Below, piece by piece: positions 18,615 to 62,996 of a DNA stretch of 64,000 bases. Within the stretch, counting starts at the first letter, position 1, and each line of letters opens with the position of its first letter. The translations under genes and the position numbers were made by a program. Below the pieces are notes generated by a model, which had not been told where the DNA came from, ran no database searches, and was given only the letters and a program-made list of their open reading frames with translations. The DNA comes from Carboxylicivirga linearis (GTDB lineage: Bacteria > Bacteroidota > Bacteroidia > Bacteroidales > Marinilabiliaceae), in assembly GCF_018271995.1 (NCBI RefSeq), contig NZ_JAGUCO010000010.1:62001-126000 (forward strand), in the 5' to 3' direction.

Positions 18615-18634
18615 CAAGTAACCGGGAAAATACA

Positions 18635-18667: not shown

Positions 18668-19079
18668 AATTGAATTAAATACATAATTTTTTAATATTTC
18701 AATTTGGATGACCTTAAAAAATATGGAATCTGACTTACAGAAGTGTTTTAGTAAGACCGAGAAGCTGAGAACTTGTTCGAAGATCTCTCGGCCGCACTTA
18801 AATACTACAATAATCAATGTTCATATTTTTTTGTAGTCTTGACTTTCTTTGTTTCGTTTCTTGTGTTAAAACAAGAAATGAAAAGCCTCCGCGGCTTGAG
18901 CGTCTAAATATCAAATAATAAGAAGAAGTGAAGGAAGAGATGTAAGTTTAAGTTTCCTATTATGATCTGCCTTGTAGATTTATTAAATTGCGATGGAACT
19001 GAAAGATACAACAGGAATGGAATATCAATGATATTTCTTTTGTGTTGAAAACCTTAAAAATATTGCTAAATACAACTTA
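18668..19079 (+). other. Intergenic region upstream of GH3
   Basis: About 410 bases without a convincing gene. TAGATTTA at 18975-18982 is a weak -7 candidate. The region also holds the hairpin element described separately at 18852-18883. Otherwise I see only AT-rich sequence. Confidence 0.4.
18852..18897. repeat. Suspected dispersed intergenic hairpin element
   Basis: TTTCGTTTCTTGT (18852-18864) pairs with ACAAGAAATGAAA (18871-18883) in a 13-bp stem with one G-T pair. A second small stem, AAGCC/GGCTT, around CCGCGG (18889-18894) follows directly. The two-stem layout and the composition, unlike its AT-rich surroundings, resemble an intergenic sequence I recall from other Bacteroidota genomes. 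No second copy is visible in this window, so the repeat call is inference. Confidence 0.4.
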
Positions 19080-21257: not shown

Positions 21258-21264
21258 CTATTAC

Positions 21265-21302
21265 AAGGTCTTCATCAATTAAATTTAGTTGGTGAAGACC
21301 TT
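21265..21302 (+). terminator. Stem-loop after GH3
   Basis: A 16-bp stem with two G-U pairs (21265-21280 with 21287-21302) and loop AAATTT. No long U-run follows, so termination may be partial and some read-through into the regulator gene is possible. Confidence 0.65.
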
Positions 21303-21319
21303 CAATAAAAATTAATTGA

Positions 21320-33663: not shown

Positions 33664-34236
33664 CTAAAGAAAGAGGGCAATAAACAGCAACAATGCGATA
33701 GATTCTTTATTCACTCTTTCTTTAATAAATTTAATTGTTTCTGATACTATGTTATCGATTGTACCTGGTGATAGGTTTAATTCTTCAGCAATTTCTTTTG
33801 CTGATTTACCTTCCATACGGCTTTTTAAAAAGATTTGTTTTTTACGTTCAGGAAGTTGATCAATAAGTTCATCTATATATTCTAAAATGGAAGCATACTC
33901 TAATCGTTCAGAAAGTTCGTTGCTGTTATTCTCTACAATATTAGACAAATATAGTTGGTGATAGTTCTGTTTTCGAAAATGTTTGAGTATATCGTTATAG
34001 GCAACAGTAAATAAAAAAGCTTTAATGGAAGCCTCTTTTTTAATAGTTTTTCTCTTCTCCCAAACTTTTACAAAAACATTATGTACTAATTCTTCAGCTT
34101 CGCTTTCCGATTTTAGATAACGGAGAGAAAAGGCATATAATCGATTAGAATACTTATTGAAAATTGAATCAAATGCTATTGAGTTATCATTTTTTAGTTG
34201 ATCAATTAAGTCAATATCATTTCGATCAGTAGACAT
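33664..34236 (-). CDS. ECF RNA polymerase sigma factor (FecI-like)
   Basis: A 190-residue sigma-70 family protein. Region 2 is at about 25-95 (FNKYSNRLYAFSLRYLKSESEAEELVHNVFVKVWEKR) and region 4 at about 125-180 (LPERKKQIFLKSRMEGKSAKEIAEELNLSPGTIDN). The last ten residues, ALLLFIALFL, are strikingly hydrophobic. Similar tails occur in other Bacteroidota ECF factors and might touch the membrane or the anti-sigma partner. It is first in the sigma-FecR-SusC-SusD operon and should direct transcription of this locus. Confidence 0.93.
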   Translation of the reverse strand: MSTDRNDIDLIDQLKNDNSIAFDSIFNKYSNRLYAFSLRYLKSESEAEELVHNVFVKVWEKRKTIKKEASIKAFLFTVAYNDILKHFRKQNYHQLYLSNIVENNSNELSERLEYASILEYIDELIDQLPERKKQIFLKSRMEGKSAKEIAEELNLSPGTIDNIVSETIKFIKERVNKESIALLLFIALFL

Positions 34237-34423: not shown

Positions 34424-37561
<3,138 letters not shown>

Positions 37562-37662
37562 CTATTAATATGATTTAGATTTGGAGAATAGTTGTGTTTT
37601 TATTCTAATCGTAAAGGTAAAATTATAATTGTTGACTGTTAGCAAGTGACAGTAATTTAAAA

Positions 37663-37703
37663 AACCGTGTTAATTTTTCTATTGAAGAAATATTAACACG
37701 GTT
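37663..37703 (-). terminator. Terminator after GH51
   Basis: A perfect 12-bp stem AACCGTGTTAAT/ATTAACACGGTT (37663-37674 with 37692-37703) with an AT-rich loop. On the - strand it is followed by a T-rich run. It ends the GH43-DUF2264-GH51-GH51 transcript before GH2. Confidence 0.8.
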
Positions 37704-37725
37704 GAGAATGAGATTAAAAATTAAT

Positions 37726-39660: not shown

Positions 39661-39687
39661 CTGAATTTTATTTAGCTTCTTATGTTT

Positions 39688-42276: not shown

Positions 42277-42296
42277 AACGTATGGATTCTTTAATA

Positions 42297-44318: not shown

Positions 44319-44348
44319 TTTATTAAAAATTAATCAGTCGAAATTATA

Positions 44349-46862: not shown

Positions 46863-49757
46863 ATGAAATTAAAAAATTTACTTTTAAAGTATGCATTGCT
46901 TGGTGTTATTTCCTTTTTGGGAATATCAATGTCAATGGCTCAACAAACTGACACTATTGGCATTTTTGATCCGGGCTTATCGGCCAGACATATTGTTTAT
47001 GCCGAAGTAATGTTACATGATGTGGATGAGGATGGCAATTTTGATGCCTCTTTTAACCTGGCAGAAGACACAGTAAAAGCATGGGGCGATTACTCAACAG
47101 CATTGGCTTTTTATGATGAAGGTTTTGTGGTGCGAAACGGGGGTGGTTTTTCAAAATCAAGAGATATTATACCGGTTGCAGGTGAAGTTACGAAAGTATG
47201 GATTGCATTGGATGTTCCAAACTTATCTTGTAAAACTTATGTGCAGAATATTGATATGGATTATCCTGAATTGGTGTTTGATGAAAATGCTGGTTTTAGA
47301 AAAACAGATATAGTTGCCATTAATAAATGGACGACTATACATAACCCGGATGCAGAGCCCGATTCTGTAGAAGTTAAGAGTATAGAGTTGCAAACCAGTG
47401 ATGATGCTACCCTACGTGAGTTAAGCGCAAGTATTGGTGAACTTACTTTAATAGATGCAGAATATGGAGAGTATGAGTTGTATGTACCTTATGGCACTAC
47501 AGAGGTAACACTAACTGCTGCAACTAATGGAATAGGCGCTGATGTATTGATCGGTGATTATGATATGAATCCGTATGAAGGAGGTGTTATTCCATTAACA
47601 CCAGAAGGAGCGGATGCCTATATTAATGTTACAGCTTTTGATGGTAGTGAGGCTACTTATATTGTATACATTGACTTTGAAGAAGGTGCTTCAAACGCAT
47701 ACCTTAGTGATATACAATTATCAACCGGGTCATTAATAACTGATTTTGATCAAACGGTTACTGAATATACAGCTATGGTACCATATGGTACAACCAGTGT
47801 TGATGTTACGGGAATTAAAGCGTGGGATGATGCCGTTTTAACAGGAAATGGTACCGTTACCTTAACTGATGGCGAAGGATCTGCTACACTTACAGTAACT
47901 TCACAAGATGGAACTGCTACTACTACTTATACATTAAGTATTTATGAATCGCAAATCAGAACCGGTGAAGATTTTTATATTGAGCAGGAAGCATCTGGTT
48001 TGGTGATTGGTGAAGGTGTTCATATTTATGAAGCATTGAAAAGTGAAAGTACACAATTAATGCAGTTTGAAGATGCAGGCGCAGAAGGAGTATTCTTTAT
48101 TAAAAACAAAGATAGTCAGTATATGTCAATTTCATCATCCAATACCTGGAATATGGTAATGCTTGATGAGCTGACGCAGAATACAGATAGTTGTGCTTTT
48201 ATTATTAATGAAATGGAGCCGGGTAAATTCCGTATGATATCTGTAGCAAAAGATGCCGCAGGTAATAATGGTTACATTGCTACTGATGCGACCTCTGCCG
48301 GAAGCTCATTGTATTGCGATAAAGGCGTTACTAATGAACGAGGTGTGTGGGTTGTTCGTACACCTGAAGAGGTATTTCCACCAGATGCTTATTTATTAGA
48401 TCTTAGTATTGATGCAGCCAACATTAAGCCTGTATTCAATGCGACAGTAACAGAGTATTATGTAACATTACCAGAAGGAACAACTTCTATTGATATAACA
48501 GCTGTGGCAGAGGAAGCAACTTCTGACATTGTAGGTGCTGGTAGTGTTTCAGTTACTGATGCCAGTGGAATAATTACAGTTACCGTAACTACCGCAGATG
48601 AAGCATATACAAAAGACTATGTAATCCATTACATTAAGGATACAGCTCTTACTCTTATGCACTCATATACTTTTGCTGACGGAACTGCAAAGGATGTAGT
48701 GGGTAGTGCTCATGGTATTACTAATGGAGGTGTATTTGCTGAAGGTATATTTGCTAATGCTTCAGACTCTTCATATATCACTTTTCCTGCCGAAGAAATC
48801 GCTATCAATACTTATCCTTCTATCACAATGGAAGTTTATATTAAAAATGTGGGTGTTAATAATGGATGGTCGATGCTTACCTACTTTGGAGGTTTAACCG
48901 GAAGTAATACTTACTGGACATCAATTCAAAATGACGATGATAACATAAAAGCCGTAATTGATCAAGGTTCTGGAGCATCAAGAGCAATTAATCCACAGGA
49001 AGCAACTAGTGATGCGTCTTTGCATTTGGTAACCACTTTAACAAATGATTCCATTTCACTTTATTTGAATGGAACACATATTGAAACAACTGCTATAAAT
49101 GATGCATACTATATTCCTCAGTTAAGTAACGAAAATGCCTGGTTATGTTATGGTGGTTATAACGATCCCACATGGTTAGGTGAAATCGAAGAGTTTAATA
49201 TTTACTCAGGAGCAATGGATGAGTTAACAGTTATGGCTCATTCTATTAATTGGCCTGCTGATGATGTGGTGGATGCTACTTTAAGTGAGATTACTATTGA
49301 TGGTGTTCCTATGGAAGATTTTAATGCTGCCACACTGGTATACACTGTAGCTGTTGATGAAGGAGCTGCTATACCTGTTGTAGGTGCAACAGCTACTTCC
49401 GGAGTGACGCCAGTTGTTACTCAGGCTACCGAAGTTCCGGGTGCCGCAACAATTGTTGTAGCCAACGGTGGAGTTGAAAATACTTACACAATTAACTTCG
49501 AAATTGCCACTGGTATTGGAAGCGATATTAATAAAGGAACAATCAAAGTTTATCCAACCGTTTCAACAGGTGAGTTTACAATTGAAATGGAAGGTAAAAC
49601 ATCAGTGATTAGTGTATATGATTTAGCTGGCGGTTTGGTAAAACAAGTAAAAACAAATGCACAACGCGAGGTTATCTCATTGGATCAAAAAGGTATGTAC
49701 ATTGTAAAAGTAGATTCTGATGGAGATACTAAATTATTTAAGGTCTTCAAACAATAG
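46863..49757 (+). CDS. T9SS-secreted multidomain protein A (LamG/cadherin-like/beta-trefoil)
   Basis: A 964-residue exported protein. After the signal (to about SMAQ) comes an N-domain unique among the four paralogs (about 27-160, VYAEVMLHDVDEDGNF), resembling the beta-sandwich modules attached to some secreted pectinases. Cadherin-like beta-sandwich modules (about 184-366), a beta-trefoil-like module (about 370-520), another cadherin-like module, a LamG-like domain (about 616-800, LMHSYTF start), a last cadherin-like module and a T9SS type A sorting tail (VYPTVSTGEF, VYDLAG, GMYIVKV) follow. No catalytic motif is recognised. Binding of surface or environmental glycans is inference from the modules. 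Confidence 0.75.
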   Translation: MKLKNLLLKYALLGVISFLGISMSMAQQTDTIGIFDPGLSARHIVYAEVMLHDVDEDGNFDASFNLAEDTVKAWGDYSTALAFYDEGFVVRNGGGFSKSRDIIPVAGEVTKVWIALDVPNLSCKTYVQNIDMDYPELVFDENAGFRKTDIVAINKWTTIHNPDAEPDSVEVKSIELQTSDDATLRELSASIGELTLIDAEYGEYELYVPYGTTEVTLTAATNGIGADVLIGDYDMNPYEGGVIPLTPEGADAYINVTAFDGSEATYIVYIDFEEGASNAYLSDIQLSTGSLITDFDQTVTEYTAMVPYGTTSVDVTGIKAWDDAVLTGNGTVTLTDGEGSATLTVTSQDGTATTTYTLSIYESQIRTGEDFYIEQEASGLVIGEGVHIYEALKSESTQLMQFEDAGAEGVFFIKNKDSQYMSISSSNTWNMVMLDELTQNTDSCAFIINEMEPGKFRMISVAKDAAGNNGYIATDATSAGSSLYCDKGVTNERGVWVVRTPEEVFPPDAYLLDLSIDAANIKPVFNATVTEYYVTLPEGTTSIDITAVAEEATSDIVGAGSVSVTDASGIITVTVTTADEAYTKDYVIHYIKDTALTLMHSYTFADGTAKDVVGSAHGITNGGVFAEGIFANASDSSYITFPAEEIAINTYPSITMEVYIKNVGVNNGWSMLTYFGGLTGSNTYWTSIQNDDDNIKAVIDQGSGASRAINPQEATSDASLHLVTTLTNDSISLYLNGTHIETTAINDAYYIPQLSNENAWLCYGGYNDPTWLGEIEEFNIYSGAMDELTVMAHSINWPADDVVDATLSEITIDGVPMEDFNAATLVYTVAVDEGAAIPVVGATATSGVTPVVTQATEVPGAATIVVANGGVENTYTINFEIATGIGSDINKGTIKVYPTVSTGEFTIEMEGKTSVISVYDLAGGLVKQVKTNAQREVISLDQKGMYIVKVDSDGDTKLFKVFKQ

Positions 49758-49787
49758 ATTAGTAGCAAATATTAATTATTAGAGAGG

Positions 49788-49821
49788 GGCGGTTCGTAAT
49801 TTATTTACGGATCGCCTTTTT
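49788..49821 (+). terminator. Terminator after protein A
   Basis: A 12-bp stem with two G-U pairs (49788-49799 with 49805-49816) followed by TTTTT. Confidence 0.88.
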
Positions 49822-49966
49822 CATGTACATAAATCTTCTTAGCTGAGTTCGACGTAAAATTTTATTCTTTCTTTCATGTATGAGCTTGTAATAACCTTCA
49901 GTTTAATGGTGGTGTAGATTTAGTATTGCTGGCAGAAGAGTGAATATATCTATAGTTAATTAGGCC

Positions 49967-50007
49967 AGAAAAAAAAGAGACCACCAGTGTTTAACCAATG
50001 ATCTCTT
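49967..50007 (-). terminator. Terminator after the DUF6261-like gene
   Basis: On the - strand a stem of about 11 bp (AAGAGATCATT side with its partner, several G-U pairs) is followed by a run of eight T. Confidence 0.7.
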
Positions 50008-50032
50008 GCTATTCCATAATCAATAAAGTTGG

Positions 50033-50737
50033 TTAATTATCTTGTTTACGTTGTTTTATTACGCCATTAATCCTATCAATCTTCAAAGCCATGCTTTCAA
50101 TCAAATCGTTATATACTTCTGGTTGTACACCTCCCATTCCTATAAGATAATTGATTAGGGTGCTGTTAATAATTCGTATTAATTCTTTCTTAACAGCAGA
50201 AGCGCTGATAGCATTTTGGTTTTCTTTCTGATTCTGCTCCCAGGTATTTTCAGCCTGTTTAAACTGTTTTTGCTCGTTTTTTAGTTTTTGAATCAGGTTT
50301 TTAACGCCCGGTAAAAGTTCTGTTTTAATAACGGTTTCGGGTTGTAGTACATCCTTTAAAAAAGATTCGGTTAAGGCCGATTGAGCCGAATAATTGGCCT
50401 TTGTTAATTCATAACCATACTTGTTCATTATCTCTAAAACCTGGGTAGCTGTTTGGCTTATTTGAGCATCCGGATGGTGCGTATAACCTTCGGTAAGGCG
50501 AAGAATTGAACTGTATATGCTATCGCGGTTATCATCAAAGGTGTTTAAATCCGATTTAGCCTTATCCTGATTGATGGCTGTAATTAATGTTACCTGCTGT
50601 ACTTCAATTTGTTTACTAATTGTTTTAAGATTTTCGTCTTCAATGCCGGTTGTATCAAGGGTGCTCTTAATATCAATTCCCAGGTCGGCAAGTTCGGCTA
50701 CGCGAATTGTGTTAATAATTCTGGAAAGTTTTTTCAT
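50033..50737 (-). CDS. DUF6261-like protein
   Basis: A 234-residue, largely helical cytoplasmic protein. The DDNRDSIYSSILRLTEGYTHHP segment (67-88) and the overall length resemble the Bacteroidota family DUF6261, whose function is unknown. A coiled-coil-like charged stretch spans about 150-185. It is inserted on the opposite strand between proteins A and B and has its own terminator. Members are often near mobile or variable regions in my recollection, but that is weak. The family call is by eye. Confidence 0.6.
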   Translation of the reverse strand: MKKLSRIINTIRVAELADLGIDIKSTLDTTGIEDENLKTISKQIEVQQVTLITAINQDKAKSDLNTFDDNRDSIYSSILRLTEGYTHHPDAQISQTATQVLEIMNKYGYELTKANYSAQSALTESFLKDVLQPETVIKTELLPGVKNLIQKLKNEQKQFKQAENTWEQNQKENQNAISASAVKKELIRIINSTLINYLIGMGGVQPEVYNDLIESMALKIDRINGVIKQRKQDN

Positions 50738-51409
50738 AAAAATCGTTTTTAGTTTAACTGATAAATGGATTATTTAGCTGTAATTTTTTGTTTGTGTCCA
50801 GAAACCTGTGCGGTAAGGCTTCAATTGTGTAATTGCGAGGTGTCTTCTGCAGTATTCTTACTTCAATTATTTAATTACGACCTAAACTTTGAAGTTTTCT
50901 ATTCGTGATTAAACAATCGAGATTTGTTTTCTCTGGTTTTGGGCTCTTGCTTAAAAAGGTATGAGTAAAGTATAAAGGTAAATTCATAGTTGTTGGCCTG
51001 TTGTTGAGTTACAATAATATAAATTTATTATATAACAAACAAAGAAAATGATTGCCTTTTTTTTCTTGAATAATTGTTTATATCTGTTAATTGTGTGTTG
51101 GCAAGTGGTGTTTTTATAGTCATATAATCAGCAAAAACAGTTGGTAATTCAGAAATATTACATGCATAAATGAACTGAATTTATTTTTAAATACAAGTTT
51201 ACAGGTTGGGGTAAAATTACACGAAAGACTTAATATGCAAGGCTTCTTGTGTGTTTGGTGTTGGTGAAAAAGGTGACTTTGATGTTGAAAAAATGAAAGA
51301 AATATGTGATTATATGCTAGGGTTAAATTGTGTTCGATAAAGTGAAAATTATAGTTTTGATCCGCAATAAAAAAGATTTAAGGGAACAACAAATTTTAAT
51401 CAAGTTATT
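50738..51409. other. Long intergenic region upstream of protein B
   Basis: A 672-base gap with no supported gene. It must carry the promoter of the DUF6261-like gene on the left, which I could not identify, and the protein B promoter at the right end. The middle is AT-rich with a loose inverted repeat ATAATA/TATTAT near 51017-51034. Confidence 0.5.
51328..51359 (+). promoter_or_regulatory. Promoter of protein B
   Basis: A -33 TTG (51328-51330) and a -7 TAGTTTTG (51352-51359, exact TAnnTTTG) are separated by 21 bases, within the usual Bacteroidota spacing. The leader would be about 45 bases. Confidence 0.6.
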
Positions 51410-54400
51410 ATGAAAATGAAAAAATTACCTTTTAAAGGGTGGTGTGTGCTTATGCTATTTAGCATTATTACACTACCGGGTGTTTCACAAACATTAAAAC
51501 ATTCGTATACTTTTGAAGATGGTACTTTTGAAGGTACTACTGTTTATGATCAAATAGGTTCAGCAAACGGTACACTACAAGGTGCTGCCAGTGTTACTGG
51601 TGGCGAATTAGTATTAGCAGCCAACGGTGACTATGTATCTTTTGATGGTACTGTAATGGATTTAAATGCATATACTGGGGGTATTACCATTGAGTTTATG
51701 TATAATTCAACAGTGGGTGCAAATGCCGATCACTGGAACTGGATTACTTATTTTGGAGGAGAATCAGGTGCCAGTAGTATTATGGCAGGGGTAAATACCT
51801 GGGGTGAATATAGACTATATAAAAATAATACCGATCCTAAAATTACAGTTGCTAGTAACGATGATGGTAAGTATCATCATGTAGTTGTGATTATGACCGA
51901 TACTAAAATCGCAATGTATGCTGATGGAGCTCTGGTTGGTGAAGAGCTTACAGAAACCTATGCAATTGATGCTGCCTATGCCTACATCGGACGTGCCTAT
52001 TGGGGTGATCCAACATGGGAGGGTGTTATTGATCAATTCAACATTTATGAAGGCGAAATGGATGCCGCTACAGTTGAAAGTAATTATATCGACTATGTAG
52101 GAGAAGATTATGTAAATGCTGATTTAGGCTCTCTTGCATTTGCTCCGGGTGATATGACACCTGAGTTTGATGCTAATGAGCAAGATTATATTGTATATGT
52201 GCCTTACGGAGATACCCTAACTGTTGTTTCTGCTGAAGCAGTTGCAGGTGCTTCAAACTATGTGATTTATACCGACGATGGATCAGTTGTAGAAGATGAT
52301 GGAGTAATAACTTTCGATGAAGCAGGAGAGTATTTAACTATTCATGTTACTGCATTAAGTGGAAATGAAAAATATTATTATGTGGAGGTTCTTCACTATG
52401 CTGCCGAAACTTCAGAACGTTTATCAGATATAGAGGTTGTTGGTGGTACTTTAATAGGTGATTTTAATCCAGACACAACAGCCTACAATATCAGAGCCGA
52501 TTACGGAGCTACTTCTGTTAATATTACCGGTGTGCCTTTTGGGGCTAATGCAACGGTAACAGGCGATGGTGAAATTAACCTTACTGATGGTGTAGCAACG
52601 ACTACCATTCATGTTGTATCGGAAGATACCAATAGTGAAATGGATTATAACGTAACTATTTACGCAACAGAAGTAACAACCGGAGTTGATTATTATTTAC
52701 AGCACGAAGCTTCGGGTTATGTTTTGAGTGAAAGTGAAGAAGAATATAACCTTATAAAAATATACGAACCTTATAACGAACCTACTCAGTTGTTTAAGTT
52801 TGTTGCAACCGATGTGGATGGTCAGTATTATATCCAGAATCAAAACGAAAATTACCTGAGATTAGCTCCTGCTGAAGGAGACCAGGTTTGGGATATGATT
52901 ATGCAGTCATCAATAATGACCGACGAGGATAGCTGTCGTTTTGAGTTGAACGAATTTGAACAAGGACGTTTCCAGATTATTTCAGTGGCCCGTGCCAATG
53001 AATTCGAAAATGTATTTATGGGAACCAATAATTCTGACCTGTTTGGTGGTGTTTACTCAGATAAATGGGATGGAAATGAATTGGCTGTGTGGTCAATTGT
53101 TACTCCAAATCAGTTAGAAACTCAATATAATACATATTTAGAGTCGTTAAGTGTTCTTGACAATGCTTTAATACCTTCATTTAATGCTACGGTTACTGAG
53201 TATCGTGTGGTATTGCCGGCAGAAACCACTCAGTTTACAGTTGAAGCTTCCGCTATGCATGATAATTCCACCGTTAGCGGAGTAGGTACGTATGATGTTG
53301 CAGCTGAAGGAACAGGTAGTGTTACGGTTACAGTAACCAATGGAGGGCAAACACGCGATTACGTTATTAGCTATCTTGTGTACAACGAGGATTTTGCCTT
53401 AATGCATTCTTATACCTTCCTTGATGGTACAGCAAAAGACGAAGTGAGCGGTGCTGACGGTGTTGTGCATGGAGGAGCCATTGATCAGGGGGTTTATACA
53501 ACCAGCGAATTAGGTGAGTATATTGAGTTGCCTGCAGCTGATATAGCTATTAATACCTATCCAAGTCTTACGTTTGAGCACTGGATTAGAGCTAATACAG
53601 AAGAAGCCAATGCAAATTCAAATACAATGATTTCCACGTTTGGTAGAACTGATTACTACGGATATGACTATGTGTATACTTCGGCAAAAAGTAGAGCAGC
53701 TATGAGCGCAACAGTTACTGAAAATCCATGGAGCAATGAAAATGGTATTGACGGTGATAATCTGGATCTTGATCTAACAGGTAATTTACACCATTTGGTA
53801 ACAATAATAACCAATGAGGCAATGTTCTTTTATGTTGATGGTCAGCAAGCAGGTGATCCGGTTGCGTTAAATGACAATAACAGAATTGCTTACTTAAGCA
53901 ACGATGCAGCATACTTGTGTAAATCAATTTACGAAGCAGATAATAGCTGGATTGGTTCGATTGAAGAATTTAACATCTATTCAGGTGTTATGGACGGTGC
54001 TACTATTCTGGAGAACTTAGCTAGCGGACCAAAACAATATGCCGGAAACGATGCCACCTTAAGTGATTTAACCATTGATGGGGTAACGATTGAAGATTTC
54101 CATTCTGCTACCTTTAACTATATAGTTACAGTTGAAGAAGGGGTAACTCCGGTAATTGCAGCTACAACCAAGGAAGTAAATGCAACTTATGAGGTTAATG
54201 GTCCTTCAGCAATTCCTGGAACTGCAACAGTTGTGGTTACTGCTGCCGATGGAGAAACAACAGCTACTTATACCATTGAGTTTGATACCCCAACTGGTAT
54301 TGGTTCACCAAAAGAAGGTGCAATAAAAGTTTATCCAACTGTTTCTACTGGCCAATTTACAGTTGAAATGGAAGGTCAGTCTTCGGTTATTGGAGTTTAT

Positions 54401-54538
54401 GACCTTGCGGGAAGATTAGTTAAACAAATTATAACAAAAGCGCAACGCGAAGTAATTACCATCGATCAAAAAGGAATGTACATTGTAAAAGTTGATTGCG
54501 AAGGAAAAACAAAATTGTTTAAGGTGTTTAAACAATAG
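51410..54538 (+). CDS. T9SS-secreted multidomain protein B (LamG, cadherin-like, beta-trefoil, LamG)
   Basis: A 1042-residue protein with signal to about residue 26. Modules: LamG-like concanavalin fold (27-228), cadherin-like beta-sandwiches (236-330 and 337-420), a beta-trefoil-like module (425-567, with YYLQHEASGYVL and repeated W/F-containing units), a third cadherin-like domain (573-656), a second LamG-like domain (662-875), a fourth cadherin-like domain (880-965) and the T9SS tail (972-1042). From residue 230 onward it is closely similar to protein D. No enzyme motifs are seen. A lectin or adhesin role is the most sensible reading, but no ligand can be named. Confidence 0.8.
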   Translation: MKMKKLPFKGWCVLMLFSIITLPGVSQTLKHSYTFEDGTFEGTTVYDQIGSANGTLQGAASVTGGELVLAANGDYVSFDGTVMDLNAYTGGITIEFMYNSTVGANADHWNWITYFGGESGASSIMAGVNTWGEYRLYKNNTDPKITVASNDDGKYHHVVVIMTDTKIAMYADGALVGEELTETYAIDAAYAYIGRAYWGDPTWEGVIDQFNIYEGEMDAATVESNYIDYVGEDYVNADLGSLAFAPGDMTPEFDANEQDYIVYVPYGDTLTVVSAEAVAGASNYVIYTDDGSVVEDDGVITFDEAGEYLTIHVTALSGNEKYYYVEVLHYAAETSERLSDIEVVGGTLIGDFNPDTTAYNIRADYGATSVNITGVPFGANATVTGDGEINLTDGVATTTIHVVSEDTNSEMDYNVTIYATEVTTGVDYYLQHEASGYVLSESEEEYNLIKIYEPYNEPTQLFKFVATDVDGQYYIQNQNENYLRLAPAEGDQVWDMIMQSSIMTDEDSCRFELNEFEQGRFQIISVARANEFENVFMGTNNSDLFGGVYSDKWDGNELAVWSIVTPNQLETQYNTYLESLSVLDNALIPSFNATVTEYRVVLPAETTQFTVEASAMHDNSTVSGVGTYDVAAEGTGSVTVTVTNGGQTRDYVISYLVYNEDFALMHSYTFLDGTAKDEVSGADGVVHGGAIDQGVYTTSELGEYIELPAADIAINTYPSLTFEHWIRANTEEANANSNTMISTFGRTDYYGYDYVYTSAKSRAAMSATVTENPWSNENGIDGDNLDLDLTGNLHHLVTIITNEAMFFYVDGQQAGDPVALNDNNRIAYLSNDAAYLCKSIYEADNSWIGSIEEFNIYSGVMDGATILENLASGPKQYAGNDATLSDLTIDGVTIEDFHSATFNYIVTVEEGVTPVIAATTKEVNATYEVNGPSAIPGTATVVVTAADGETTATYTIEFDTPTGIGSPKEGAIKVYPTVSTGQFTVEMEGQSSVIGVYDLAGRLVKQIITKAQREVITIDQKGMYIVKVDCEGKTKLFKVFKQ

Positions 54539-54560
54539 GGATTTATGTAAATGATATCGA

Positions 54561-54593
54561 GGGGCTATCTAATTTAGGTAGCCCCTTTCTTTT
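54561..54593 (+). terminator. Terminator after protein B
   Basis: A 10-bp stem GGGGCTATCT/AGGTAGCCCC (54561-54570 with 54576-54585), AATTT loop, then TTTCTTTT. Confidence 0.88.
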
Positions 54594-54772
54594 GTGCTGT
54601 TTTAAAATAAGTGACATTTTAAATCGAATTTGTTAAAGTGTAAGAATGTTAAAAAAAGTAACATTGAGTTAGTGTTTGTTTAAACTTACAAGTGATTTTA
54701 TAGCGATAATTCAAGATAAAAACAAATATTTTTTTTAACTTTTTAAATCTCTAATTTTTAATTTAAGTTATT

Positions 54773-57700
54773 ATGAAAAAAGGATTTTTACTTTTAAAAT
54801 TCTGGAGTGTTTTAATGGTGCTGGGAATTTTCTCAACAGCATCCTTAACCGGGCAAACATTAATGCACTCATATACCTTTGAAGATGGTACCTTTGAAGG
54901 AACTACTGTTTATGATCAAACAGGAGATTTAGATGGAACTTTAGGTGGCGATAGAATCTCCATTGCAGATGGTATGTGTACTGTTGCAGGGGCTACTGCC
55001 AATAATCATGGATGGATGTCTGTAGATGGAACCGCATTAGCTCTTAACTCTTATTCTTCTATTACATTTGAGGCATTTCTTGTTGCCGGTGATAATGAGA
55101 ATAATGGTGTGTTTACAATGTTAGGTTATTTTGGTGGAACTACACCAGGAGATAATTGTTTTTGGTATCAGCCAACACGTTCGGGTAATGAATCAAGAGC
55201 AGAAACAGATAATGGAACTGCTACAATCACAGCAGCTGCTGGAGAAGTGGAATTAGATGACGGTAAAATGCATCATGTTGTTGTGGTATTAACTGGTACT
55301 GAGTTATCGTATTACCTCGATGGAGCTTTATTGAGTCAGGTGTCAACCGAAGGAGCCGATTATATTAGCACCATTGGTACCGATGTAGCCAACTTCTTTA
55401 GAGGTGTTGATGGTTGGAATGACCCTAATTATAATGGATCTGTTGATGAGTTTAATATCTATGACGGAGCAATGGATCAGACTACTATCGAAAGCCGTTG
55501 GGTAGATTACGTAGGTGATGATTATATAAATTCAAGTCTGGCTAGTTTATCGGCTACTCCCGGAGAGTTTGAGGATCCTTTTGACCCTGCAGTATTTGAT
55601 AATTACCTGAATGTACCGTATGCAACAACCCAGGTTGAATTTGATATTGTTACAGCGGCAGATGTAGCAACCTATACAGTATATGAAGGTACGTCGGGCG
55701 ATGAGTTTACAGATGACATTGTAACCTTTGATGAAAATGGAATTGATATTGTTATTGAAGTTTTTGCATTAAGTGGTACATCAACCAAATATTATGTATC
55801 TATTTATGTTGATGAGGGTACTTATGATGATCGTTTACAGGATATTGAACTTTCAGTATCAGCCTTAGATCCTGTATTTGATCCTGATGTTCTGGATTAT
55901 AGTGTTATCGTACCAAATGGAACAGCATCAGTTGATGTTGCTGGAATTCCTTTTTATTCTGCAACTACAGTAACAGGTAATGGAACGGTTACTATAACAG
56001 GTGGTACAGGATCTATCTCACTTACTACAGTAGCTGAAACAGGTGGTGCAACAAGAACATATAATGTTTCTTTCACCGAAGCTGATGGTCTTAACTATGC
56101 TCTTAATCTCGATGGTAATGATGGTCAGACAAGTAATGTTGATATCTCAGGTTTGAATTTAACAACCTTACCTTATACCATGGAAATGTGGTTCAAGCCA
56201 AGTGCAGTTCCACAATCGGATTATGCTGGAATGATAATGAATGGTAGTAATACAGTTAACGGAATGAGTTATGTGGGATGGCAGAGAGATTATGATGCCA
56301 TGCGATTGAATGCTACCGGAAATGGTGATCAGTATGCAGGACCAACCGTAACACATGAAATTACAGAGGGGTGGCATCATGTGGCAGCTATTGTAACTGA
56401 AAACTCAAGAACTCTTATTTTAGATGGTGTTGAATATAACGAAGCAGCCAACTTTACACCAGTTGACTGGACACAGGAAAAAACTTATATAGGAGCATGG
56501 GATGGCTATTGGTCTCGCACATTTAGTGGATTAGTAGATGAAGTTAAAATCTGGAATGATTCAATTTCACCTGAGATATTAAGTGCTAATAAATACGATG
56601 CCTTAAATGGCGATGAAACTGGTTTGTTGGCATATTATAGTTTCGACCTGCAAAATAGCTCACAAGCGGTGGATATGGCCGCAGATGCACACCATGGTTT
56701 AATAACCGGTGGTACCTATGAAGTTTCATTCGATAGAGCTAATCTTGAATTATCTTCTTTAATGATTGATGATGAGATGATCCAAGGATTTGTCTCAACT
56801 GCAACTGAATACCGGATAACATTGCCTGTTGGAACTACAACCATAAATGTGGCTGCAACTACTGCTGATGCAACTGCAAAAATTTCCGGAGTGGGTGATA
56901 TTAATGTTTCAGATGGAGCGGGTTCAATAATATTGACTGTTACATCAGCTGATGATTTGTATTCGAGAGACTATGTAATACATTATCTGCTTGATACAGA
57001 ATTAACGCTAATGCATTCTTATACATTTACCGATGGTACAGCACGTGATACAATTAGTGGAGCAAATGGGTTTGTAACTGGTGGATTTATCGAAAATGGT
57101 ATGTTTGTAAGTGACCCAACTGGATATGTTACTTTACCAGCCGAAGATATTGCTATCAATTCTTTCCCATCTATCACCATGGAAGCATATGTGAAGGCTG
57201 GTAACAATACAGGTAATACAATGCTTACCTATTGGGGTGGTTTATCAGGAAGCAATACCTATTGGGTTTCAGTGCAAAATGAAGCTGATTATACTAGAGC
57301 TACAGTTGATCAAGGGAGTGGACAGTATAGATCAGAGACAGCAGGAGAGGCAGCGGAAGACGGAATTTACCATTATGTAACTACCTTAACCAATGATTCA
57401 ATTTCATTATACATTAATGGAGCAGCTATTGGTAAAACAGCTCTTCCGGCTGATTATAGTATTTACGGATTGAGTAACGAAAATGCATGGATTTGCTATA
57501 GTGGTTATGCAGCTGATCCTGTTTGGTTAGGTTCTGTATACGAGTTTAATGTATATTCCGGAGAAATGGATGATATTACCATTCTTAACAGAGCACAGAA
57601 CTTACCTGAAGAAGATAATACTATGGATGCCACTTTAAGTACATTAAGATTGGATGGTGATACTATCGAAGGATTCCATTCGGCCAATTTGGAATATACG

Positions 57701-58120
57701 GTTGCATTGGAAGATGGAACAGTGCCAGTAATTGATGGAGTTGTTAAAGTAGATGGAGCTGAAATAACAACCATTACACCACCGGATGCAATTCCTGGTG
57801 TGGGTACTGTTTTGGTTACTGCTTTAGATGGAACCACAACCAATACTTATACAATCAATTTTGAGATTGCAACCGGAGTAGAAAAACCTGTTAAAGAAAG
57901 TGCAATTAAGGTTTATCCTACAGTTTCAACAGGTGAGTTTACGGTTGAAATGGAAGGACAAACTTCTATGATTACGGTATACGATTTAGCTGGTAGATTA
58001 GTGAAACAAGTTAAAACCAATTCGCAAAGAGAAATTATTTCACTGAATCAAAAAGGTATGTATATTGTTAAAGTTCACTCAGACGATGAAACTAAATTAT
58101 TTAAGGTTTTCAAGAGATAA
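54773..58120 (+). CDS. T9SS-secreted multidomain protein C (three LamG-like domains)
   Basis: A 1115-residue protein, signal to about residue 28 (SLTGQ). Modules: LamG-like (29-245), two cadherin-like sandwiches (about 250-435), a second LamG-like domain (about 440-650, YALNLDGNDGQ, LPYTMEMWFKPS, EGWHHVAA) where B and D have the beta-trefoil, cadherin-like, a third LamG-like domain (about 750-940), cadherin-like and the T9SS tail. Residues 1-245 are closely similar to protein D, and the third LamG is closest to that of protein A. It has its own terminator, so each paralog appears to be a separate transcription unit. Confidence 0.8.
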   Translation: MKKGFLLLKFWSVLMVLGIFSTASLTGQTLMHSYTFEDGTFEGTTVYDQTGDLDGTLGGDRISIADGMCTVAGATANNHGWMSVDGTALALNSYSSITFEAFLVAGDNENNGVFTMLGYFGGTTPGDNCFWYQPTRSGNESRAETDNGTATITAAAGEVELDDGKMHHVVVVLTGTELSYYLDGALLSQVSTEGADYISTIGTDVANFFRGVDGWNDPNYNGSVDEFNIYDGAMDQTTIESRWVDYVGDDYINSSLASLSATPGEFEDPFDPAVFDNYLNVPYATTQVEFDIVTAADVATYTVYEGTSGDEFTDDIVTFDENGIDIVIEVFALSGTSTKYYVSIYVDEGTYDDRLQDIELSVSALDPVFDPDVLDYSVIVPNGTASVDVAGIPFYSATTVTGNGTVTITGGTGSISLTTVAETGGATRTYNVSFTEADGLNYALNLDGNDGQTSNVDISGLNLTTLPYTMEMWFKPSAVPQSDYAGMIMNGSNTVNGMSYVGWQRDYDAMRLNATGNGDQYAGPTVTHEITEGWHHVAAIVTENSRTLILDGVEYNEAANFTPVDWTQEKTYIGAWDGYWSRTFSGLVDEVKIWNDSISPEILSANKYDALNGDETGLLAYYSFDLQNSSQAVDMAADAHHGLITGGTYEVSFDRANLELSSLMIDDEMIQGFVSTATEYRITLPVGTTTINVAATTADATAKISGVGDINVSDGAGSIILTVTSADDLYSRDYVIHYLLDTELTLMHSYTFTDGTARDTISGANGFVTGGFIENGMFVSDPTGYVTLPAEDIAINSFPSITMEAYVKAGNNTGNTMLTYWGGLSGSNTYWVSVQNEADYTRATVDQGSGQYRSETAGEAAEDGIYHYVTTLTNDSISLYINGAAIGKTALPADYSIYGLSNENAWICYSGYAADPVWLGSVYEFNVYSGEMDDITILNRAQNLPEEDNTMDATLSTLRLDGDTIEGFHSANLEYTVALEDGTVPVIDGVVKVDGAEITTITPPDAIPGVGTVLVTALDGTTTNTYTINFEIATGVEKPVKESAIKVYPTVSTGEFTVEMEGQTSMITVYDLAGRLVKQVKTNSQREIISLNQKGMYIVKVHSDDETKLFKVFKR

Positions 58121-58153
58121 TTAATAGATGGAATATTTTGAAGTTGAATTTAG

Positions 58154-58182
58154 GAAGAGGTCTGTTAGACCTCTTCTTTTTT
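58154..58182 (+). terminator. Terminator after protein C
   Basis: A perfect 10-bp stem GAAGAGGTCT/AGACCTCTTC (58154-58163 with 58167-58176), GTT loop and a T6 run. Confidence 0.92.
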
Positions 58183-58535
58183 ATTATTTAGAAAAGAGTA
58201 TATAAATAAAAAATATAAAAAATATAAAAAATATAAAAAATATCACCAATCATATTTATACATCTACATATAAGAAATTAAAATGGGTTCGTGATTTTTT
58301 TAACACTTTTTGTTCAGACTAGAACTTAAATTTATTGTTGATATATTAGTGCTAAAGGGTAGAATATTTGTATATTGGGGTGAGTTATGTTGCTGTGAGT
58401 TATCTTTAGGTAGGTTTATTTCTGACGAATTATTTTACGATTGTGCCGAAAAAGTAACAAAGTAAAGAAACTAATACTAATAAATTGTGCAACACAAATT
58501 AACAATTTATATCTCTAATTATTAATTAAGTTACT
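58183..58535 (+). other. Intergenic region upstream of protein D
   Basis: Contains the A-tract repeat and a leader (58511-58535) nearly identical to that of protein C (54747-54772), both ending in AAGTTA-T/C-TATG with the start codon. No exact -7 element was found. No gene is seen. Confidence 0.5.
58208..58243. repeat. Tandem repeat, four copies of a 9-bp A-tract unit
   Basis: AAAAAATAT is repeated four times without a mismatch. It sits about 290 bases upstream of protein D. It is the only perfect short tandem repeat I found in the window. Near-helical A-tract phasing could bend DNA, and copy number could vary by slippage. Confidence 0.9.
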
Positions 58536-61500
58536 ATGAAAAAAAGATTTCTACTTTTAAAATTCTGGTATATTTTTATTGTGCTGGCAACTGTTTCAAC
58601 CGCATCCTTAACCGGGCAAACATTAATGCACTCATATACCTTTGAAGATGGTACTTTTGAAGGAAGTACTGTTTTTGATCAGACAGGGGATTTAGATGGA
58701 ACCCTGGGAGGTGATCGTATTTCTATTGCTGATGGTATGTGTACTGTTTCTGGAGCTACTGCCAATAATCATGGGTGGATCTCATTAGATGGAACTGCTT
58801 TAGCGCTGAATACTTATACTGCTATTACATTTGAGGCGTTTCTTGTTGCCGGTGATAATGAGAATGGTAGTTTTACTATGCTAGGTTATTTTGGTACATC
58901 CACGCCGGGGAATGGTTGTTTTTGGTATCAGCCATCACGTTCGGGCAATGAATCAAGAGCAGAGACAAATAATACATCGACAACAATAACAGCCGCCGTT
59001 CCAGAAGTGGAGTTGGATGATGGTAAAATGCATCATGTTGTTGTGGTGCTGACAGGTACTGAGTTGTCGTATTACCTCGATGGAGCCTTATTAGCTCAAA
59101 CATCAACAGAAGGGGCCGATTTTATCGGTACCATTGGTACCGATGTAGCCAATTTCTTTAGAGGTGTTGATGGTTGGAATGATCCAAACTATAATGGATC
59201 AGTGGATGAGTTTAATATTTACGATGGAGCAATGGATCAGACTACAATAGAGAGTCGTTGGGTTACATATGTTGGAGAAGACTATCTTAATGCAGATTTA
59301 GCCTCTATTTCATGTACACCAGGTGATCTGACACCAACGTTTGATCCTGCTGAACTAGATTATACTGTATATGTGCCTTATGGAGATACAACAACAGTTA
59401 TTAGTGTTGAAACGGCTGCTGATGTGGCAAGCTATACCATTTATACGTACGATGGAACAGTTGTTGGAGATGATGGAGTGGTCACTTTTACCGAGGATGG
59501 AGAGAATCTAACCATTTATGTTACTGCTTTAAGTGGAGATGAAAAGTATTATTATGTGGATGTTTATCAGTATCCTGAAAAAACATCTGAGCGTTTATCT
59601 GATATAGAGGTTACAGGTGGTACTTTAATAGGTGACTTTAATCCTGATTCAACTTCTTACAATATCAGAGCTGATTACGGTGCAACTTTAGTTGAGATTA
59701 CCGGTGTGCCTTTTGGGTCTGGAGCTACTGTAACAGGTGACGGCGTAATTAACCTTACTGACGGTGTTGGATCAGCTACCATTCATGTTGTGTCGGAAGA
59801 TGCAAACAGTGAAATGGATTATAATGTAACTATTTACGCAACAGAAATAACAACCGGAGTTGATTATTACCTTCAGCACGAAGCTTCGGGCTATGTTGTA
59901 GGTGAAAGTGGCGAAGAGTATAATATGATTAAAATCTATGAGCCTTATAATGAACCTACTCAATTATTTCAGTTTGTATCAACTGATGTAGCAGGTCAGT
60001 ATTATATCCAAAACAAAAATGGTAATTACCTAAGATTAGCTCCAAAGAACGGAGATCAGGTATGGGATATGATAATGCAGCCTACTATAATGGTAGAGGA
60101 AGATAGCTGTCGTTTTGAGTTGAATGAATTTGAACAGGGACGTTTCCAGATCGTTTCAGTGGCTCGTGCCAATGAATTTGAAAATGTATTTATGGGAACC
60201 AATAATTCTAACCTGTTTGGTGGAGTTTACTCAGATAAATGGGATGGAAATGAAATGGCTTATTGGTCAATTGTAACACCGGATCAGATAGATGTTCAAT
60301 ACAATACTTATTTAGAGTCGTTAAGTGTTCTTGACAATGCTTTAATACCTTCTTTTGATGCTACTGTTACTGAGTATCGTGTTGTATTACCAGAAGGAAC
60401 TGCTCAGTTTACCGTTGAGGCTATAGCTCAGCATGTTAGTGCAACAGTTGCTGGAGCAGGTACAATTGATGTGGCAGCTGAAGGAGAAGGTAGTGTTACT
60501 GTTACCGTAACCAATGGAGGGCAAACACGTGATTACGTTATTAGTTATGTATTATACAGTGAAGATTTTGCCTTAATGCATTCTTATACATTCCTTGATG
60601 GTACAGCAAAAGACGAAGTGAGCGGTGCTGATGGTGTTGTGTACGGAGGAGCTATTGACCAAGGTGTTTTTACAGCCAGCCAATTAGGGGAGTATATTGA
60701 GTTACCTGCAGGAGATATAGCTATTAATACATACACAAGTGTTACGTTTGAACATTTTATAAGAGCTAATACAGAAGGAGCCAATACAAATTCAAATACA
60801 ATGATCTCTGCATTTGGCCGATCTGATGGATATGGATACGACTATTTCTTTACTTCGGCTAAAAGTAGAGCGGCTATTAGTGCAACGGTTACTGAAAATC
60901 CATGGGAGAATGAAAGTGGTGTTACTGGTACTGATCTGGATGCTGACCTAACAGGTGCTTTACATCATTTGGTAGCAATTATTACTAAGGATGCTTTGTA
61001 TTTTTATGTTGATGGATCGATAGCAGGTGATCCGGTTGCTTTAAATGAAAATAACAGAGTTGAATATTTAAGTAACGAGGTAGCCTATTTGTTCAAATCT
61101 GTTTACCCAAATGATAATACCTGGATTGGTTCGATTGAAGAGTTTAATATCTATGCTGGTGTAATGGATGATGCTACTATTCTTGAAAACTCTATCGCTG
61201 GACCAAAAGCATATGCCGGAAACGATGCAACCTTAAGTGATTTAACTGTTAATGGAGTGACTATTGAAGGTTTCCATTCTGCTACTTTTAACTATATGGT
61301 TACAGTTGAAGAAGGGGTAACTCCGGTAATTGTAGCTACAACCAAGGAAGCAAATGCAACTTATGAGGTTAATGGTCCTTCAGCAATTCCTGGAACTGCA
61401 ACGGTTGTGGTTACTGCTGCTGACGGTGAAACAACCAATACTTACACAATAGAGTTTGATACAGCAACTGGTATTGGTTCATCTACTGAAGGAGGAATAA

Positions 61501-61712
61501 AAGTTTATCCAACAGTATCAACTGGTGAGTTTACAGTAGAAATGGAAGGTCAAACTTCTTTAATAACTGTTTATGATTTAGCTGGTAGATTAGTTAAGCA
61601 GGTGAAATCAAACACTCAACGTGAGATCATTTCAATTGACCAAAAAGGAATGTACATTGTAAAAGTAGAATCTGATGGAGACACTAAATTATTTAAAGTC
61701 TTTAAAAGATAA
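58536..61712 (+). CDS. T9SS-secreted multidomain protein D (mosaic of B and C)
   Basis: A 1058-residue protein with signal to about residue 28. Modules: LamG-like (29-243), two cadherin-like (about 245-435), beta-trefoil-like (438-582), cadherin-like, LamG-like (677-890), cadherin-like and T9SS tail (985-1058). Its first 243 residues match protein C (shared LAVAGDNEN-type loop, NFFRGVDGWNDPNYNGSVDE), whereas the rest matches protein B (shared ETSERLSDIEV, GVDYYLQHEASGYV, NEFENVFMGTNNS). The change of closest relative is abrupt near YVGEDY. It is followed by a terminator and the regulator gene. Confidence 0.8.
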   Translation: MKKRFLLLKFWYIFIVLATVSTASLTGQTLMHSYTFEDGTFEGSTVFDQTGDLDGTLGGDRISIADGMCTVSGATANNHGWISLDGTALALNTYTAITFEAFLVAGDNENGSFTMLGYFGTSTPGNGCFWYQPSRSGNESRAETNNTSTTITAAVPEVELDDGKMHHVVVVLTGTELSYYLDGALLAQTSTEGADFIGTIGTDVANFFRGVDGWNDPNYNGSVDEFNIYDGAMDQTTIESRWVTYVGEDYLNADLASISCTPGDLTPTFDPAELDYTVYVPYGDTTTVISVETAADVASYTIYTYDGTVVGDDGVVTFTEDGENLTIYVTALSGDEKYYYVDVYQYPEKTSERLSDIEVTGGTLIGDFNPDSTSYNIRADYGATLVEITGVPFGSGATVTGDGVINLTDGVGSATIHVVSEDANSEMDYNVTIYATEITTGVDYYLQHEASGYVVGESGEEYNMIKIYEPYNEPTQLFQFVSTDVAGQYYIQNKNGNYLRLAPKNGDQVWDMIMQPTIMVEEDSCRFELNEFEQGRFQIVSVARANEFENVFMGTNNSNLFGGVYSDKWDGNEMAYWSIVTPDQIDVQYNTYLESLSVLDNALIPSFDATVTEYRVVLPEGTAQFTVEAIAQHVSATVAGAGTIDVAAEGEGSVTVTVTNGGQTRDYVISYVLYSEDFALMHSYTFLDGTAKDEVSGADGVVYGGAIDQGVFTASQLGEYIELPAGDIAINTYTSVTFEHFIRANTEGANTNSNTMISAFGRSDGYGYDYFFTSAKSRAAISATVTENPWENESGVTGTDLDADLTGALHHLVAIITKDALYFYVDGSIAGDPVALNENNRVEYLSNEVAYLFKSVYPNDNTWIGSIEEFNIYAGVMDDATILENSIAGPKAYAGNDATLSDLTVNGVTIEGFHSATFNYMVTVEEGVTPVIVATTKEANATYEVNGPSAIPGTATVVVTAADGETTNTYTIEFDTATGIGSSTEGGIKVYPTVSTGEFTVEMEGQTSLITVYDLAGRLVKQVKSNTQREIISIDQKGMYIVKVESDGDTKLFKVFKR

Positions 61713-61889: not shown

Positions 61890-62996
61890 ATGACGGAACG
61901 ATCGTTATTAAATATCTTACTCTCAAAATATTTCATAGGTATATTTGTAGGCTTAACTGTGATTCTGATTGTAGTAATAAGTTATTTTTCAAGTATTAAA
62001 GATCTTGTGATCTTTCCAAGCGAGGAAGAATATACTTTTGGAGGATATACCGATAAAGTCAATCAGGGAGCATCTGAGATTATTGAACTTACTATCTCTG
62101 ATTCTACCTTATTATTTCATTTTAGACTGAAAGAAGGATTTTTTAGTCCTTATGCTGGCTTTAGTATTTCTCGCAAAGATGGTAAGTCCATTGATGCATC
62201 CGAATATAACCAGATTAGCTTGTGTGTATTAGGGGAAAATATTAAGCGATTAGGTGTAGGAGTTTATGGAGTGTTGAATGATGCTGATGAAGAAGGGGAG
62301 AATCTTTTTCATTCCTATTTAAATATATCAGATGTTAAAGAAATTTATCATATTTCTAAAAGTCAGCTTCAACATCCCGACTGGTGGGAAGATTTATACC
62401 AGATAACGGATTCAGAGAATGATGAGCCGGATTTTTCAAGGATTATGCATTTAAATATAGGTTCTGCTTATTCACCAGATATCAACACGGATAAAACCAT
62501 AGAAATTTACACAATCGCTTTTACAAGGGATAATTCACGGCTTTTTACGCTTCTGGCTATTGTTTATATTGTATTAATTGTATCGTTGTTTGTTTTCTTT
62601 TATATACGTCTTTATATAAACAAAAAGGGAGACTCGGTAACAGTTACTTATCAGCCGGTTGAATTAAAAAAAGAGAATGCTGTGGAAGATGATATTTGTC
62701 TGGGGTTTATAAATCTACACTTTCATGATAATGATTTAAACCTGGATGTAGTAGCAGAAAAAACAGGTGTTAGTCAACGAAAAATTACCAATCTTATCAA
62801 TAATCGATTCAATTGTAATTTTAAAAGCTATATCAATCGAATTAGAATAAATGAGGCGAAACGATTACTAAGTGAAACTGATATGAACATTGGTGAGATA
62901 GCATACAAAGTAGGGTTTAATAATCAAAGTCATTTTAATCGAGTCTTTAAAGCAGAAAATAATATCAGCCCTTCGGAATATAGAGAAAATCAATGA
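61890..62996 (+). CDS. Membrane-anchored AraC-family regulator with extracytoplasmic sensor domain
   Basis: A 368-residue protein with two predicted transmembrane helices (about 14-33 and 218-240) flanking an extracytoplasmic domain of roughly 180 residues. That domain has a jelly-roll-like pattern (LLFHFRLKEGFFSPYAGFSI, SEYNQISLCVLG, W165-W166, a closing IEIYTIAF strand) reminiscent of CBM11/CIA30-type carbohydrate-binding folds. The cytoplasmic C-terminus (268-368) is an AraC-type double HTH (LDVVAEKTGVSQRKITNLIN, IGEIAYKVGFNNQSHFNRVFK). There is no kinase or receiver domain, so this is a one-component transmembrane regulator. It follows the four T9SS genes, which it may control. Target and ligand are inference. 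Confidence 0.85.
   Translation: MTERSLLNILLSKYFIGIFVGLTVILIVVISYFSSIKDLVIFPSEEEYTFGGYTDKVNQGASEIIELTISDSTLLFHFRLKEGFFSPYAGFSISRKDGKSIDASEYNQISLCVLGENIKRLGVGVYGVLNDADEEGENLFHSYLNISDVKEIYHISKSQLQHPDWWEDLYQITDSENDEPDFSRIMHLNIGSAYSPDINTDKTIEIYTIAFTRDNSRLFTLLAIVYIVLIVSLFVFFYIRLYINKKGDSVTVTYQPVELKKENAVEDDICLGFINLHFHDNDLNLDVVAEKTGVSQRKITNLINNRFNCNFKSYINRIRINEAKRLLSETDMNIGEIAYKVGFNNQSHFNRVFKAENNISPSEYRENQ

Follow-up and report, generated by a model that had tools for sequence, protein, structure and literature searches.

In Carboxylicivirga linearis we found a gene whose product is likely a transmembrane one-component activator, with a sensor resembling the carbohydrate-binding modules (CBMs) of families 11 and 30, a candidate operator linked to xyloglucan-type genes, and a proposed target operon displaced from the regulator gene. 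The gene (61890-62996, + strand) lies in a 64,000-nucleotide stretch of contig NZ_JAGUCO010000010.1 (forward-strand positions 62,001 to 126,000), here called the window; coordinates without further label refer to it. In the mechanism that we propose, the sensor, held between two transmembrane helices, would bind in the periplasm a fragment of hemicellulose, with a xyloglucan oligosaccharide as the most likely ligand. This would change the arrangement of a receptor pair (probably dimeric), and the cytoplasmic AraC domains would bind a direct-repeat operator from the membrane and recruit RNA polymerase. The target in the source genome (G000) would be a BACON-GH5 operon separated from the regulator gene. 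If this holds, one small protein can suffice for Bacteroidota to sense a plant polysaccharide, with no phosphorelay or sigma cascade and with a fold of the binding-module type as receptor.

Domain architecture of the regulator

An ATG-initiated open reading frame (ORF) of 368 aa occupies exactly 61890-62996, and the gene is intact. A preliminary description of this DNA had assigned it an AraC helix-turn-helix (HTH), which was borne out: Pfam HTH_18 matches residues 289-366 (E 2.1e-25; 89.2 bits versus a cut-off of 33.6), HTH_AraC scores 44.5 bits, above its family cut-off, and the C-terminal double HTH places the protein with the AraC/XylS regulators. The full-length AlphaFold2 model (three-row alignment; mean predicted local distance difference test (pLDDT) 79.7, predicted template modelling score (pTM) 0.56) has a cytoplasmic DNA-binding domain at residues 264-367 (62679-62990, +), with helices from 264-277 to 361-367 and two HTH motifs. 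No kinase, receiver, or sigma/anti-sigma domain was found in the protein with Pfam at E <= 1, in keeping with the one-component design first proposed for it.

That proposal also gave the protein a single transmembrane helix; there are two. Hydropathy peaks at residues 15-33 and 221-239, and the model has helices at residues 14-35 (61929-61994, +; N-terminus predicted cytoplasmic) and 216-247 (62535-62630, +; hydrophobic core 221-239), with a beta-sandwich between them (extracytoplasmic sensor, residues 36-215; 61995-62534, +) and the AraC helices after. We aligned the window protein with eight homologues (31-53% identity). Two comparable hydropathy peaks occur in 9/9 sequences, and net positive charge precedes helix 1 in all nine and follows helix 2 in eight. 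The predicted topology is cytoplasmic at the N-terminus, extracytoplasmic at the sensor, and cytoplasmic again at the C-terminus, with the sensor anchored at both ends. Because all eight homologues keep this architecture at such identities, it is not a chance arrangement.

Fold of the sensor domain

Modelled alone with AlphaFold2 (residues 37-218, three-sequence alignment), the sensor reached a pLDDT of 79.3 and a pTM of 0.76, and the five models spanned pLDDT values from 48.6 to 79.3. The predicted structure is a beta-sandwich of the CBM11/CBM30/CIA30 type, which supports the CBM11/CIA30-like fold that the preliminary description had read from the sequence pattern. The best Foldseek match in the PDB is CBM11 from Clostridium thermocellum (6r31, E 4.6e-8, TM-scores 0.63/0.67); other matches are further CBM11 structures (6r3m, E 1.8e-7, TM-scores 0.67/0.69; 1v0a), CIA30/NDUFAF1 (7zkq, E 2.9e-7), and CBM30 (1wzx, E 4.9e-7; 2c24). 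The three closest matches and six of the eight closest are CBM11 or CBM30 modules. What the sensor has in common with these families is the predicted fold; it differs in its low identity (12-16% in the eight best fold matches) and in being part of a membrane regulator instead of an enzyme. The aromatic residues Y88, Y153, and W166 are identical in 9/9 aligned sequences, and Y53 and W165 in 8/9.

Several results weigh against a glycan-binding sensor. Sequence profiles of CBM11, CBM30, and CIA30 gave no significant match to it (best CIA30, E 0.19, in one of nine members), a sequence search of the PDB returned a single, unrelated match (E 0.73), and by sequence the sensor falls outside these families. 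The fold matches include proteins without known sugar binding (CIA30/NDUFAF1 and APC10), and the C. thermocellum CBM11, the closest fold match, prefers cellohexaose over xyloglucan (PMC10992016). In favour of such a sensor, CBM30 binds xyloglucan and beta-glucan about equally (PMC10992016). Searching the source genome with the Pfam CIA30 profile was uninformative, as it gave no match there and none in the control genomes.

The sensor could instead recognise a periplasmic protein, such as a sugar-loaded binding protein, DUF2264, or an outer-membrane component, with the same regulator and operator. In fold, the complex I assembly factor CIA30/NDUFAF1 comes almost as near to the sensor as the CBMs do, and ChiS of Vibrio is reportedly activated by a chitin-binding protein (PMC11856585). 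We consider a protein ligand unlikely, given the predominance of CBM11/CBM30 modules among the closest fold matches; moreover, no common binding-protein gene was noticed in the labels of the core loci described below, where no search was aimed at one.

Distribution of the regulator family

Judged from the genomes sampled, the family looks narrow. Within the taxonomic family, 6 of 71 genomes have relatives of the N-terminal 237 residues (seven genes, two of them in G004). In the order, a sensor profile matched 4 of the 295 genomes sampled (the source genome, G004, G217, and G192), and in the phylum 2 of the 395 sampled, namely the source genome and a weak match (L024; E 6.9e-4) that we discounted as it has three stops inside. 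Scanning genome contigs added Flagellimonas oceanensis and Reichenbachiella agariperforans (two of 33 candidate stretches). By similarity, not by a tree, we grouped ten genes from nine genomes as a core clade (G000, G007, G019, G038, G004 with two, G020, G217, Flagellimonas, and Reichenbachiella), and the two regulators of G192 as a divergent pair.

Hemicellulose hydrolase genes beside the core regulators

Genes for carbohydrate-active enzymes or SusCD follow nine of the ten core regulator genes in the same direction, the tenth being the window gene. The regulator precedes GH39-GH43 in G007 and G020, GH43 in G038, BACON-GH5-GH39-GH43-GH43 in G019, GH43-GH127-BACON-GH5-GH39 in G217 (GH39 cut by the contig end), and BACON-GH5-GH51 in Reichenbachiella. 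GH127 follows at both G004 loci; it is split over two ORFs at one of them, and BACON-GH5, GH39, and GH43 lie further downstream at the other. The Flagellimonas regulator is followed by SusC-SusD, a gene with no Pfam match, GH97-GH3-BACON-GH5-GH39-GH43, and then a GH42/DUF5597-type gene (SusD and the Flagellimonas enzyme labels were tested with Pfam). No ORF resembling a hybrid two-component system (HTCS) was found in the approximately 47 kb seen around this locus.

The genus relative G019, a single contig, is syntenic to the window (GH31, GH3, HTCS, SusCD, FecR, GH2, arabinofuranosidase, DUF2264, and GH43), and its regulator is directly divergent from the GH43 gene of that cluster and followed by BACON-GH5-GH39-GH43-GH43. 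An operon of the same content (BACON-GH5, GH39, GH43, GH43) lies at G000:C11:2698-9594, outside the window on the same contig; a search for a regulator remnant before it returned nothing convincing (best E 0.96). A GH39 orthologue (at least 67% identity) is present in five of the six regulator genomes versus 3 of 65 others in the family (P 2.5e-5, uncorrected for phylogeny); at the looser threshold of E <= 1e-40 the counts are 5/6 versus 6/65 (P 2.0e-4, likewise uncorrected). Gene content thus indicates that the regulator's conserved association is with hemicellulose hydrolases, largely of the xyloglucan type.

The enzymes themselves point to xyloglucan. The BACON-GH5 protein of the displaced operon matches 5oyc (cel5D, which we take to be a Cellvibrio xyloglucanase) at E 1e-177 and 3zmr (BoGH5A) at E 3.9e-77, its first GH43 matches BoGH43B (E 2.5e-235), and its GH39 matches beta-xylosidases. 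Within the window, the best PDB match of the GH31 protein is the alpha-xylosidase BoGH31A (E 0), and the GH5 protein matches 5oyc and 3zmr. BoGH43A/B, BoGH31, and BoGH5 are enzymes of the xyloglucan locus of B. ovatus (PMC4967831). Two points count against this assignment: the second GH43 of the displaced operon has no close match from a xyloglucan locus (best 6ms3, E 9.7e-47), and GH39, GH43, and GH127 enzymes serve arabinoxylan or arabinan too, so that xyloglucan is not the sole candidate. Xyloglucan or its oligosaccharides are the most economical guess for the ligand; arabinoxylan and other beta-glucans are possible.

In both G000 and G019, GH39 is preceded by a 341-bp intergenic stretch (L051:4462-4802 in G000:C11; L027:12551-12891 in G019) that is 97% identical between the two genomes, while the flanking GH5 proteins are 82% identical. 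Approximately the first 225 bases fold into a long palindrome (z -4.0, computed over all 341 bp). The stretch matched no Rfam family and may represent either a structured leader or a small mobile element of palindromic type.

A conserved direct repeat as candidate operator

Upstream of the linked operons, TTTTTGTAAAAG occurs twice in approximate form, the period being 21 bp (TTTTTGTAAAAG, N9, TTTTTGTAAAAG), and we infer that this repeat is the operator of the regulator. Its strict core, TGYMAAR-N14-TGYMAAR, precedes the linked operon for nine of the ten core regulator genes, including the displaced operon of the source genome (G000:C11:2607-2644). The downstream end of the repeat lies 50-60 bp from the called start codon at six of these nine sites (G000, G019, G007, G038, G217, and the second G004 locus); the distance is 114 bp at the first G004 locus and 197 bp in Flagellimonas.

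Left-out matrices, in which each site was scored without its own genome (without the whole genus for G000, G007, and G019), provided an independent test. The nine true sites rank top in 8/8 regions of 13 to 144 kb, with the two sites of the G004 region scoring first and second. The G000 site scored 20.4 bits versus 15.2 for the next best in 143.9 kb of the contig (approximately 141 kb of it distinct). True sites scored 19.1 to 38.0 bits when left out and 32.3-42.4 bits with the full matrix, of which they are themselves the source.

For whole genomes we required TTT before the second core. G000 (C11:2613) and G019 (C1:3627189) each have a single match to this version, before BACON-GH5 in either case, and G007 has three, one of them before GH39. 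Outside the genus, the target site was found in G038, G217, Flagellimonas, and Reichenbachiella, as were both G004 sites, one of which reads as a match on either strand; G020 has no match, and the one match in G192 is not at a target. The 11 genus genomes without the regulator have four matches in total, and 15 genomes without a core regulator have five in all; a backwards control pattern gave six across the 14 genus genomes. Three genomes with GH39 and without the regulator (G050, G030, and G023) have no strict operator anywhere in the genome. The window has no strict match either, its matches with at most one mismatch are at chance level (2 versus an expected 3), and no position in it exceeds a matrix score of 12.9 bits, reached within the SusC-like gene. 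In the stretches examined, no strict site occurs upstream of the regulator genes that would suggest autoregulation.

Other observations speak against the repeat as operator or against its assignment to this regulator. The pattern was initially derived by eye from the very sites later scored with it, and the left-out tests alone are independent of this. The margin of these tests is not everywhere large, with the lowest true site at 19.1 bits (Reichenbachiella) and the top decoy at 17.7 (G019). In Reichenbachiella the mechanical ORF call for GH5, made from a GTG, takes in the repeat, so that the true start is presumed to be later. No strict site is present in G020, whose near match before the operon is the best of the region (19.4 versus 4.6 bits for the next). 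There are two further strict matches in G007 and one in G217 in addition to the target site, and G030 has a weak matrix match (14.2 bits) approximately 110 bp before GH39, inside another ORF. Finally, the candidate operator of the displaced operon is approximately 121 kb from the regulator in G000, where the regulator does not adjoin its proposed target.

The candidate sites are direct repeats of the type bound by HTCS, whose operators have repeats averaging 21 bp apart and are read as dimer sites on one face of the DNA (PMC3878776). This geometry suggests, by analogy, an HTCS-like mode of DNA binding without a phosphorelay. The closeness of the repeat to the start codon at six of nine sites would also suit a repressor that is released by the glycan. 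We regard repression as very unlikely: HTCS, which share this repeat geometry and HTH type, are counted with the AraC/XylS activators (PMC10766802), and the spacing would fit an activator that touches the polymerase.

Divergent regulators with a divergent repeat

The G192 pair has altered recognition helices; by eye, R297, which is the same in 9/9 core sequences, is replaced by E or D, and S/T347 by Q. The G192 loci carry TGTTAAG repeats in place of the core repeat, at one locus downstream of the regulator, ahead of the CE2 gene that follows, and at the other upstream of the gene preceding the regulator. A pattern drawn from these two sites occurs exactly twice in the G192 genome, at the two regulator loci, and not once in four core genomes; what this result gives is the genome-wide uniqueness of the pattern. 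Both G192 regulators stand directly before large CE2 plus polysaccharide-deacetylase proteins (L031:5683-8841 and L032:10774-15186), which points to a different substrate for the sister pair. The HTH and operator variants of the core clade and of G192 offer a natural test of AraC recognition rules.

Relation to known regulators

Glycan-responsive membrane one-component regulators are already a known kind, with TfoS and ChiS as examples. The DNA-binding domain of TfoS is AraC-type. Like the regulator described here, which by prediction combines an extracytoplasmic domain, a membrane anchor, and a DNA-binding domain in a single chain, TfoS of Vibrio has a periplasmic domain, an anchor, and a cytoplasmic DNA-binding domain, lacks a two-component signature domain, and is induced by chitin oligosaccharides to bind its promoter (PMC11856585, PMC7564644). 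By analogy with TfoS, the regulator may bind DNA from the membrane. The two differ in that the periplasmic domain of TfoS is described as related to that of HTCS, not to CBM11/30 (PMC7564644), and in that TfoS has a small-RNA promoter as target, depends on ChiS, and serves chitin-induced competence in another phylum and with another ligand.

HTCS share with the regulator, as we read it, a periplasmic glycan sensor, a C-terminal AraC HTH, control of polysaccharide utilisation loci, and direct repeats of approximately 21 bp (PMC3878776). They differ in domains that the regulator lacks (Reg_prop/Y_Y_Y, HisKA, HATPase, and receiver) and in size, the regulator having 368 aa versus 1366 aa for the window HTCS. 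The best reading, by this analogy, is that the regulator is in effect an HTCS without the phosphorelay. Compared with the xyloglucan utilisation locus of B. ovatus, the loci here have similar content (BACON-GH5, GH31, GH43, GH3, and SusCD); they differ in having a second regulator, linked with an accessory operon, and in the Flagellimonas regulator standing immediately ahead of a SusCD locus of this kind. ToxR and CadC carry an N-terminal winged-helix DNA-binding domain, unlike the regulator with its C-terminal AraC domain and two membrane passes. The likeness to them is that of membrane-integrated one-component activators (PMC5430869, PMC7888679).

The CBM11/30-like receptor, the xyloglucan setting, and the operator appear undescribed, to judge from our searches of open-licence PubMed Central papers. 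On balance we lean towards a new receptor family for glycans in Bacteroidota. Its CBM11/30-like module would be wired to AraC through the membrane, as a further route beside HTCS, SusR-like, and extracytoplasmic function sigma/anti-sigma systems. The receptor would stand before a xyloglucan-type locus with no HTCS-like ORF in the approximately 47 kb seen (Flagellimonas) or work alongside an HTCS (this genus), and its G192 sister pair would differ in HTH and operator. As the sensor has defined boundaries and there are candidates for both ligand class and operator, the whole chain from ligand to DNA is directly testable, and a compact sensor with a defined operator could make a xyloglucan biosensor.

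LamG genes and other genes of the window

Four genes for LamG/cadherin-like proteins with type IX secretion system (T9SS) tails (starting at 46863, 51410, 54773, and 58536; 46863-61712, +) lie between the GH43 cluster and the regulator; a DUF6261 gene on the opposite strand separates the first from the second. Pfam agrees with the preliminary description on their nature, finding Laminin_G_3 and a C-terminal sorting domain in the four, the sorting domain of the 51410 gene scoring 24.6, below the cut-off of 27. The proteins are paralogous (964 to 1115 aa), and two of them are 72% identical.

The preliminary description had linked the regulator to these secreted lectin-like genes and had named in advance the lack of a conserved association as the point on which the link would fall; it falls on that point. 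LamG genes adjoin the regulator in one of ten core cases (G000). At E <= 1e-30, relatives of one LamG protein occur in only G000 and G007 of the 14 genus genomes, and in no case in G019. That the regulator controls the adjacent LamG genes would accord with three of them standing directly upstream in the same direction, and with G007 having both the regulator and LamG homologues, the latter on other contigs with contig ends between, which leaves their order unsettled. We find such control extremely improbable, given the single adjacency among ten core genes (one of them unsettled), the lack of relatives in G019, and the absence of an operator near the LamG genes in pattern and matrix scans of the window, whose best score of 12.9 bits compares with the range of the nine sites given above. 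Of the three alternatives (protein ligand, repression, and LamG control), only LamG control has direct evidence against it. These comparisons mark the four LamG genes, which in G000 intervene between the GH43 gene and the regulator, as a local feature and not as conserved neighbours.

The HTCS and FecI/FecR systems that the preliminary description had placed in the window are present. A xyloglucan-type polysaccharide utilisation locus (7190-25420, +) comprises SusC-like, SusD, BACON-GH5, GH31, GH3, and the HTCS (21320-25420, +; 1366 aa, with kinase and receiver domains), together with an ORF without a Pfam match (12053-14005, +) that is, by position, a putative surface glycan-binding protein. 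Its SusC and SusD share 54% identity with the pair that immediately follows the regulator in Flagellimonas. FecI/FecR-type genes, also named earlier, are found at 33664-34236 and 32488-33534. The cluster of GH2, two arabinofuranosidase-type genes, DUF2264, and GH43 occupies 34424-46508 on the - strand (Pfam); its G019 counterpart has one arabinofuranosidase gene and is the cluster directly divergent to the regulator there. A 306-aa ORF (26203-27123) with no Pfam match at E <= 1e-5 lies between the HTCS and a second SusCD, and G019 has a 308-aa ORF at the matching position, the correspondence being one of position.
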